From Thermovibrio guaymasensis (lineage in GTDB: Bacteria > Aquificota > Aquificia > Desulfurobacteriales > Desulfurobacteriaceae): 64,000 nt of DNA. Within the stretch, counting starts at the first letter, position 1; each line of letters opens with the position of its first letter. Location: positions 1 through 64,000 of the forward strand of contig NZ_RBIE01000001.1 of assembly GCF_003633715.1 (NCBI RefSeq). The letters run 5' to 3'. Of the stretch, positions 15,094 through 16,774 are shown one piece after another. Both the position numbers and the translations under genes were made by a program. The notes under the pieces were generated by a model. It saw only the letters and a list, made by a program, of their open reading frames with translations. It did not search any database and was not told the origin of the DNA.

Positions 15094-15519
15094 ATGAGGG
15101 TAATGGCCCTTGATGTCGGTTTTAAAAGGATAGGAGTGGCCATTTCAGACCCTCTGGGCCTTACAGCTTCACCCTACACCATTATACATAGGAAGAGTAA
15201 TAGGGAGACTTTTAAGGAGCTCTTAAGGATAATTGATGAAAAGGGAGTTGGAAAAATAGTTGTAGGGATTCCTGTTAATAGGGAAGGGAAAGTTACTCAG
15301 ATCGGCCAGAAGATAAAGAAATTTGCCTCAAAACTTGAAGAATTCTTAAAGGAAGAGGGAAGAAAAGTTGAGATAACCTTCTGGGATGAAGCTTACTCTA
15401 CAAAGGAGGCTCAAGAGATCGCAAGGAGCTTGGGAAAGAAGAAAGAGGAACTTGACGACTACGCGGCAGCTCTAATTCTAAGGGAGTTCCTTGAACAATT
15501 GCAGTCTAAAGGGCAGTAG
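15094..15519 (+). CDS. ruvX: Putative pre-16S rRNA nuclease / Holliday junction resolvase-like RuvX (YqgF)
   Basis: This 141-residue RNase H-fold protein starts with MALDVGFKRIGVAISDPLG, which contains the first acidic catalytic residue. Later it has VVGIPVN and, in its second half, FWDEAYSTKEA and ELDDYAAALIL, which carry the remaining acidic residues. YqgF-family proteins mature the 5' end of 16S rRNA. The gene follows the ThiS-like gene without a gap, and a terminator lies about 115 bases downstream. Confidence 0.9.
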   Translation: MRVMALDVGFKRIGVAISDPLGLTASPYTIIHRKSNRETFKELLRIIDEKGVGKIVVGIPVNREGKVTQIGQKIKKFASKLEEFLKEEGRKVEITFWDEAYSTKEAQEIARSLGKKKEELDDYAAALILREFLEQLQSKGQ

Positions 15520-15557: not shown

Positions 15558-15586
15558 TTGACAAAACCGATATTGATAACTATTAT
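15558..15586 (+). promoter_or_regulatory. Promoter for a possible short RNA after ruvX
   Basis: TTGACA (15558-15563), perfect, and TATTAT (15581-15586) are exactly 17 bases apart. The only thing between the predicted start (about 15593) and the terminator at 15634 is a C-rich tract, so the promoter does not obviously serve a protein gene unless transcription reads through to mnmA. Confidence 0.65.
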
Positions 15587-15592
15587 TATTAA

Positions 15593-15664
15593 CAGACACC
15601 CCCTATCCCCCTCCCTCCTCCCCATAAGTCTTTAAGGGGCGCCTCAGGCGCCCCTTCTTTTTTT
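15593..15664 (+). ncRNA. Candidate small RNA with C-rich tract
   Basis: A transcript from the promoter at 15558-15586 would be about 70 bases: a C-rich stretch (15599-15623, containing CCTCC, the complement of Shine-Dalgarno sequences), then a strong terminator hairpin. CCCCATAAG (15620-15628) is also the reverse complement of CTTATGGGG (15549-15557) upstream of the promoter. A read-through ruvX transcript could therefore fold the C-rich part away. No protein frame fits. This is a prediction only; the segment could instead be just the terminator region of ruvX. Confidence 0.45.
15634..15664 (+). terminator. Rho-independent terminator before mnmA
   Basis: AAGGGGCGCC (15634-15643) pairs perfectly with GGCGCCCCTT (15647-15656) around a TCA loop, followed by C and seven T. 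It ends the ThiS-like/ruvX operon and the candidate small RNA. Confidence 0.9.
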
Positions 15665-15724: not shown

Positions 15725-16774
15725 ATGGGAAAGAGAGTTTTACTTGGGTTCAGCGGCGGAGTTGATAGCTTTTACAGTGCCTATCTACTGAGAGAGAAGA
15801 GTTTTGACGTCCACTTGATTTACTTTAAGCTCCTTAAAACGGCAAATCCAGAGAGGGTTAGAAAGAGTGCTGAACTCCTTAAACTTCCTCTAACAGTTAT
15901 AGACCTATCAGATGAGTTTAGAAAGGCGGTAATAGATTACTTCATCCGTTACTACAAGTTGGGTCTAACTCCGAACCCCTGTGCAGTGTGTAATAGGGAA
16001 ATAAAGTTAAAGTACCTGTACAGGTTGATGAAGGAGCTCTCCTTTGACTTTATTGCAACCGGCCACTACGCAAGGGTAGTTTACGTTCCGGAGTTTAGGA
16101 GGAACCTAATTTCAAGGGGAGTAGATAGGAGGAAGGAGCAGTCTTACTTCCTTTCCCTTGTAGAGAGAGAAGTTTTTGATTCTTTACTCCTCCCTTTAGG
16201 TGATTTTACTAAAGAAGAAGTTGTAAAGAGGGCAAAAGAGCTAGGGTTTGAGTATAGGGGGGAGAGTCAGGATATATGCTTTATTCCTGGAGAGTATACA
16301 GAGTTCCTTAAAAGGTTCATAAAGCCAAGACCCGGTTACTTTAGGCTCAGAGATGGAACCGTTCTTGGAAGGCACAAAGGCCTCTTTTACTACACCGTTG
16401 GTCAAAGGAGAGGACTTGGAATTCCCTATAAACATTCCCTCTACGTCCTAGAACTCTTACCGGAGGAGAATGCTGTAGTTGTTGGAAGTAAGGAAGAGAT
16501 TCTGAAGGATGAGATTTTAGTTTGGAAGTTAAACTGGCACGTAAAACCTGAAGAACTTGTGGGTAGAGAAATTGAAGTTCAGATAAGGTATAGGGCGAAA
16601 CCGGTAAAAGTTAGAGAATTAAAGTATTTAAATTCTGACTTTTATTGTGTAAAATTAGCGGCGAAAGTAGAAGCTCCTGCTCCGGGGCAGGTCTGCGCCT
16701 TTTACAACGGAGATCTGCTTATCGGAGGGGGAGAAATTACAAGGGAAGGAGCCGGGAGATGGAAGGAAGCATAG
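15725..16774 (+). CDS. mnmA: tRNA-specific 2-thiouridylase MnmA
   Basis: This 349-residue protein thiolates uridine 34 of tRNA(Lys, Glu, Gln). The PP-loop GFSGGVDS is at residues 8-15 and adenylates the uridine. The catalytic cysteines are in NPCAVCNREIKL (C89) and SQDICFI (C185), with GHYARV between. The C-terminal part has the usual substrate-gating barrel. No clear Shine-Dalgarno sequence precedes the ATG. Its last 16 bases overlap the first ATP synthase gene. Confidence 0.94.
   Translation: MGKRVLLGFSGGVDSFYSAYLLREKSFDVHLIYFKLLKTANPERVRKSAELLKLPLTVIDLSDEFRKAVIDYFIRYYKLGLTPNPCAVCNREIKLKYLYRLMKELSFDFIATGHYARVVYVPEFRRNLISRGVDRRKEQSYFLSLVEREVFDSLLLPLGDFTKEEVVKRAKELGFEYRGESQDICFIPGEYTEFLKRFIKPRPGYFRLRDGTVLGRHKGLFYYTVGQRRGLGIPYKHSLYVLELLPEENAVVVGSKEEILKDEILVWKLNWHVKPEELVGREIEVQIRYRAKPVKVRELKYLNSDFYCVKLAAKVEAPAPGQVCAFYNGDLLIGGGEITREGAGRWKEA

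Follow-up and report, generated by a model that had tools for sequence, protein, structure and literature searches.

A conserved candidate small-RNA gene with a C-rich core and a predicted Fur-family operator in Desulfurobacteriaceae

Introduction

Does the intergenic space between ruvX and mnmA of Thermovibrio guaymasensis encode a regulatory RNA and, if so, what would turn it on and which mRNAs might it silence? Regulatory small RNAs (sRNAs) are hardly known in Aquificota. A survey of noncoding RNAs in Aquificales put forward novel candidates for Aquifex aeolicus only (Lechner et al. 2014; PMC4227106), and a recent study of D. thermolithotrophum physiology is proteomic, with no mention of an sRNA in its main text (PMC12724263). 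The locus lies in a 64,000-nucleotide stretch of the genome (contig NZ_RBIE01000001.1, positions 1 to 64,000), hereafter the window. An earlier note, made from the letters of this DNA alone, had read the space as a candidate sRNA gene consisting of a near-consensus promoter, a C-rich tract able to pair with Shine-Dalgarno (SD) sequences and a strong terminator. Here, we follow up this reading by computational analysis of the locus and its relatives.

Results

Architecture of the locus

The features of the locus are collected in Table 1. The promoter described in the earlier note matches the sigma-70 consensus at 11 of 12 positions, and TTGACA-N15-19-TATTAT occurs a single time in the 64-kb window versus 0.04 occurrences expected by chance. 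The terminator is likewise as strong as described, with G-C in 8 of its 10 stem pairs and CTTTTTTT directly after the stem, but the distance from the end of the -10 hexamer to the stem is 47 nt, not the 48 given there. The C runs, CCTCC among them, were read correctly, as was the lack of coding capacity: there is no plausible protein frame between ruvX and mnmA. The predicted RNA folds into an open 5' tail followed by the terminator hairpin, which accounts for nearly all of the folding signal (z = -4.3). The core has a predicted mean unpaired probability of 0.95 at 37 C and 0.99 at 70 C, and the anti-SD seed CCUCCUCCC is present once, within the unpaired tail. What is expected of an sRNA gene is thus found here, i.e., its own promoter and terminator, no open reading frame and a unit kept regardless of its neighbours.

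Table 1. Coordinates of the predicted sRNA gene (15558-15664) and its neighbours in the window
Feature	Position	Strand	Remarks
Sigma-70-type promoter, TTGACA-17-TATTAT	15558..15586	+	-35, 15558-15563; -10, 15581-15586
Fur-family (PerR-like) 7-1-7 operator TGATAACTATTATTA, predicted	15574..15588	+	Overlaps the -10; one mismatch to TGAKAAYNRTTMTCA
Predicted sRNA, ~70 nt	15593..15663	+	Boundaries predicted from the -10 (5') and the terminator (3')
C-rich core CCCCTATCCCCCTCCCTCCTCCCCA, 25 nt, predicted unpaired, includes CCUCCUCCC	15600..15624	+	Identical in 21/21 genomes
Intrinsic terminator (GC-rich stem of 10 bp, U tract)	15634..15664	+	Stem, 15634-15656
ruvX, upstream neighbour, outside the RNA gene	15094..15519	+	TIGR00250 over cut-off
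mnmA, downstream neighbour, outside the RNA gene	15725..16774	+	NF001138 over cut-off

Conservation across Desulfurobacteriaceae

Of the 22 Desulfurobacteriaceae genomes, 21 have promoter, C-rich tract and terminator as one unit, and the sole genome without a match is 83% complete. The earlier note had held that its candidate would be refuted if promoter and tract were not conserved in close relatives. The feature passed this test, and an sRNA gene with a C-rich anti-SD seed is strongly supported. BLASTN against 60 relatives recovered the stretch from 20 of the 21 other family genomes and yielded no convincing match outside the family. A search of 136 Aquificota genomes with a 24-nt core (up to 3 mismatches) returned 21 exact matches, every one within Desulfurobacteriaceae; the conserved unit is absent from the 114 other Aquificota, where only two 3-mismatch matches to the core were found. 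Since viral contigs contained no exact core match, a phage origin of the RNA was rejected.

Alignment of the carriers revealed that none of the 25 positions of CCCCTATCCCCCTCCCTCCTCCCCA, not even the UAU and single-U interruptions, varies among the 21 genomes, which span 35% to 52% G+C. Almost no variation is seen in the -35 hexamer and around the -10 either, whereas the flanking genes, the flanking sequence and part of the terminator vary, and the sequence beyond the RNA unit is largely unrelated between genomes. With the unrelated perR-like gene as a yardstick (one mis-framed locus set aside), third codon positions are 32-62% identical between this genome and other family members. Pairing in the terminator stem is maintained through a G-C to C-G exchange in one genus and G-C to A-U exchanges in others, compensatory changes that lend modest support because few distinct sequences are involved. 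Together, we are highly confident that the locus is a real, conserved sRNA gene.

A predicted Fur-family operator at the promoter

The earlier note missed the predicted Fur-family operator that covers the -10 hexamer, which is new here; through this operator the RNA would receive its likely signal. The palindrome TGAKAAYNRTTMTCA is commoner than its reversed pattern in much of the family (e.g., 15 versus 1 in genome G008 and 16 versus 2 in G013; 7 versus 4 in the genome of the window), and its only perfect copy in T. guaymasensis lies directly upstream of the second Fur-family (perR-like) gene. Related boxes precede perR-like and peroxiredoxin genes in most family genomes, with control sites inside genes nearly always scoring worse. 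In T. guaymasensis, two peroxiredoxin genes have similar boxes, as do sufC and the perR-like gene. A further box lies upstream of a flavodiiron protein gene. We scanned 464 kb of the genome with an operator matrix trained on the peroxiredoxin and perR boxes alone, none of them from the RNA. The RNA's own box TGATAACTATTATTA ranked first of all sites, followed among intergenic, gene-upstream matches by the two peroxiredoxins, which belong to the training set, and sufC, which does not.

Two Fur-family proteins are encoded in this genome (C1:420918-421343 and C1:165016-165291), and both best match PerR models, at scores below the equivalog cut-offs. The autoregulated one has Asp at the PerR Asp104 (D104) position and Glu at the Asp85 position. 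Control of the RNA by a Fur-family, PerR-like regulator is therefore likely on the basis of its box and regulon. An iron-sparing RNA of the RyhB/FsrA/IsrR type, made under iron scarcity, with the box read by an iron-sensing Fur, and sparing iron-containing enzymes, would account for several of the same observations. The RNA's box also resembles iron-Fur boxes (H. pylori-type Fur consensus), a box is present at sufC, and the candidate targets korAB and cytochrome c peroxidase specify iron proteins. Moreover, FsrA and IsrR direct C-rich regions at SD sequences (PMC9410917). However, no convincing box was identified in the feoAB promoters examined, so feoAB was rejected as a member of the regulon; peroxiredoxins carry the box through most of the family, as do perR-like genes; and the best models for the regulator are PerR. 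On these grounds, a PerR-like repressor is favoured over an iron-uptake Fur as the putative reader of the box, and an iron-sparing RNA seems unlikely.

Several observations on the box and its regulon stand beside this question. In G008, a second copy of the box, with its own TTGACA, lies in tandem upstream of the sRNA promoter (G008:C9:40026-40064, L006). One T. guaymasensis peroxiredoxin gene (G000:C1:498569-499180, L343) has an in-frame TGA that possibly encodes selenocysteine. It adjoins a TGA-free paralogue, whose nearest NCBIfam model is PrxU, and a PerR-like box is placed ~11 bases upstream of the start codon of each. In genus g6 (L240, L241, L243, L262 and similar loci), many good palindrome matches are located within or between genes whose functions are unrelated, which could mean a larger regulon there or the involvement of a second motif. 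Finally, a promoter TTGACA-17-TATTAT with TGAGAACTATTATTA, nearly identical to that of the sRNA, is located ~240 nt upstream of a gene for a 613-aa secreted protein with no Pfam match (G000:C2:242889-243165; L147, 2390-2670, - strand). Its leader contains CTCCTCCCTCTACCTCCTCCCTATAC, which could pair with the ribosome-binding site AAGGAGGAGGTAT of the same gene, making it a possible self-masking leader.

Pairing potential and candidate targets

The target analysis covered a 464-kb sample of the 1.62-Mb genome and the start regions of 487 genes. Duplex energies with these regions are about 1 SD better for the core than for shuffled cores. In contiguous complementarity to the 487 ribosome-binding sites, the core exceeds the shuffles on average but equals the reversed core, so the pairing is not statistically significant genome-wide, and part of the signal reflects SD composition. 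When up to 2 mismatches over 17 nt were allowed, near-perfect complements of the core proved neither commoner than those of the reversed control pattern nor located at ribosome-binding sites. The SD pairing proposed in the earlier note is plausible.

Uninterrupted 9-bp matches to the core were identified in korA, korB, and genes for a di-haem cytochrome c peroxidase, a universal-stress-type protein and a NuoK-like subunit, among others; the kor and cytochrome c peroxidase identities are backed by Pfam. At the korA site, 7-10 bp of complementarity are kept in all but one of the 12 genomes in which korA was found. Of the 11 genomes read for korB, 7 have GGGAGGGAG at its site; because this site and the end of korA overlap, its conservation may in part reflect protein coding. 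For both ribosome-binding sites, most of the genomes read preserve a complementarity of 7-10 bp. Enrichment of haem and iron-sulfur proteins among the candidate targets is weak (CxxCH, p = 0.02, uncorrected), with no enrichment of other iron motifs. The best candidate target is korAB, specifying 2-oxoglutarate:ferredoxin oxidoreductase. As a separate observation, the korA-korB ribosome-binding sites have unusually extended G/A tracts, AGGAGGGAGAG and GGGAGGGAGAG (G000:C2:134069-136487), which are kept in several relatives.

Hfq is encoded in 21 of 22 family genomes, the exception being 62% complete. Besides the canonical hfq gene, located elsewhere in the genome, T. guaymasensis has two adjacent genes for larger proteins (~170 aa) with Hfq-like domains (G000:C1:171944-172614), a pair that occurs in nearly all family genomes.

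The RNA probably acts by pairing with ribosome-binding sites, and blocking of these sites is the most economical mechanism. Alternatively, the pyrimidine-rich tract might titrate Rho, a cold-shock protein or Hfq and pair with no mRNA at all. Rho binds unstructured, G-free, C-rich RNA, which this RNA is, and such a role would fit a pairing excess that is not significant genome-wide. Yet these proteins tolerate substitutions, whereas 25 of 25 core positions are invariant in 21 genomes, which makes protein titration improbable.

Autonomy of the RNA unit

The earlier note had suggested looking for the tract between ruvX and mnmA in relatives. The tract is conserved, its location only in part: ruvX and mnmA flank the unit in some genomes, and elsewhere unrelated genes do, also in the opposite direction. 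Such variation of the neighbours indicates that the unit is autonomous rather than a leader of mnmA. As judged from the alignments, the RNA gene stands alone, and selection on the exact core sequence is strong.

The remaining explanations fare worse against these data. The locus might serve as a DNA element in which a G-quadruplex on the G-rich minus strand adjusts promoter activity, with the RNA as a by-product. The minus strand GGGGAGGAGGGAGGGGGATAGGGG has sufficient G runs for this; however, a quadruplex requires G runs and not an exact invariant sequence, and it leaves the dedicated conserved terminator unexplained, so that we consider this role very improbable. A role as leader or attenuator is suggested by mnmA following the unit in the window and in roughly half of the relatives. 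It is contradicted by synteny, as the other relatives have a different or oppositely oriented next gene next to an unchanged RNA unit, and deserves still less credence. A minus-strand microprotein running through the core (NTG, then GGG AGG AGG GAG GGG GAT AGG, open in aligned relatives) was ruled out on account of zero third-position variation, with neither a ribosome-binding site nor a promoter and a frame that would extend into the operator.

Discussion

Our findings point to 15558-15664 as a PerR-repressed, trans-acting sRNA that would block ribosome-binding sites, to which, conserved gene, control and pairing taken together, we assign a probability of roughly 0.6. Its conservation, its architecture and the operator it has in common with other genes are read directly from the genomes. 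An invariant C-rich tract and, at the promoter, a box belonging to oxidative-stress genes together suggest that the RNA is probably a stress-induced translation brake.

For its transcription, induction, pairing and targets, we infer the following course. Under iron-replete, reduced conditions, a PerR-like Fur-family repressor would sit on TGATAACTATTATTA over the -10 hexamer and keep the RNA off. Oxygen, peroxide or iron limitation would release the repressor and turn the RNA on, along with peroxiredoxin, suf and the perR gene. The RNA, a terminator hairpin preceded by an unstructured, C-rich 5' tail, would then act in trans: the tail, in which the seed CCUCCUCCC lies, would pair with extended SD sequences (e.g., AGGAGGGAG) of selected mRNAs and, probably with Hfq, block translation starts. 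Iron-rich or oxygen-sensitive enzymes such as 2-oxoglutarate:ferredoxin oxidoreductase would be the likely targets. In a global variant, which we regard as rather unlikely, the RNA would be a decoy of the 16S anti-SD sequence, masking many G-rich ribosome-binding sites upon oxygen exposure. If true, translation of the whole anaerobic proteome would be slowed by a PerR-controlled brake in a deep-branching thermophile.

Rfam contains no family that the RNA matches at the gathering threshold. The weak covariance-model hits (RF00519 suhB, 18.1 bits versus a gathering score of 41; RF02344 ar14, 9.8 versus 58.8) were discarded as chance or terminator-driven. The closest likeness in the seed is to the alphaproteobacterial cuckoo/alpha-r14 RNAs (NfeR1; SmelA075, SmelA099), in which the exact, ultraconserved and unpaired CCUCCUCCC is retained while stems diverge, and which reporter assays have shown to silence mRNAs through this seed at the translation initiation region (PMC3927594, PMC10746234). 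They present the seed several times, each in the loop of one of 3-4 hairpins, whereas the RNA described here has it once, in an invariant 25-nt open tail before the terminator; it shares with them the unpaired seed but neither the several hairpin loops nor a gathering score with the covariance model, and both phylum and operator differ.

FsrA of Bacillus and IsrR of Staphylococcus are alike in combining Fur-family control with C-rich regions that pair with SD sequences (PMC9410917). Unlike the single open tail found here, they have several stem-loops, the RNA has no Rfam match at the gathering threshold, and its regulon looks PerR-like rather than devoted to iron uptake. A CCUCCUCCC-like seed is also a feature of CcsR1-4 of Rhodobacter sphaeroides. 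These photooxidative-stress sRNAs affect central carbon metabolism and bind Hfq (PMC8307010). They are processed from the ccaF1 3' UTR under alternative-sigma-factor control, in contrast to the own promoter and operator of the Desulfurobacteriaceae RNA. OxyS and RyhB-type RNAs are redox- or iron-controlled, trans-acting stress RNAs; the likeness to them is a functional analogy alone, with no Rfam match at the gathering score. The RNA would belong to the class of stress-controlled, C-rich anti-SD RNAs and, by analogy, resembles FsrA, IsrR and NfeR1 in its proposed working; homology to any named family is not supported.

To conclude, the locus would give Desulfurobacteriaceae an RNA that is present in single copy throughout the family and has a readable on-switch; it may be the first sRNA placed under a PerR-like repressor in Aquificota. 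Its seed is common to the alphaproteobacterial cuckoo RNAs, to which homology was not found, and would represent convergence on the same solution. If the RNA is indeed under such a repressor, it would connect oxygen or iron stress with the way in which hydrothermal-vent anaerobes control carbon fixation at the level of translation.
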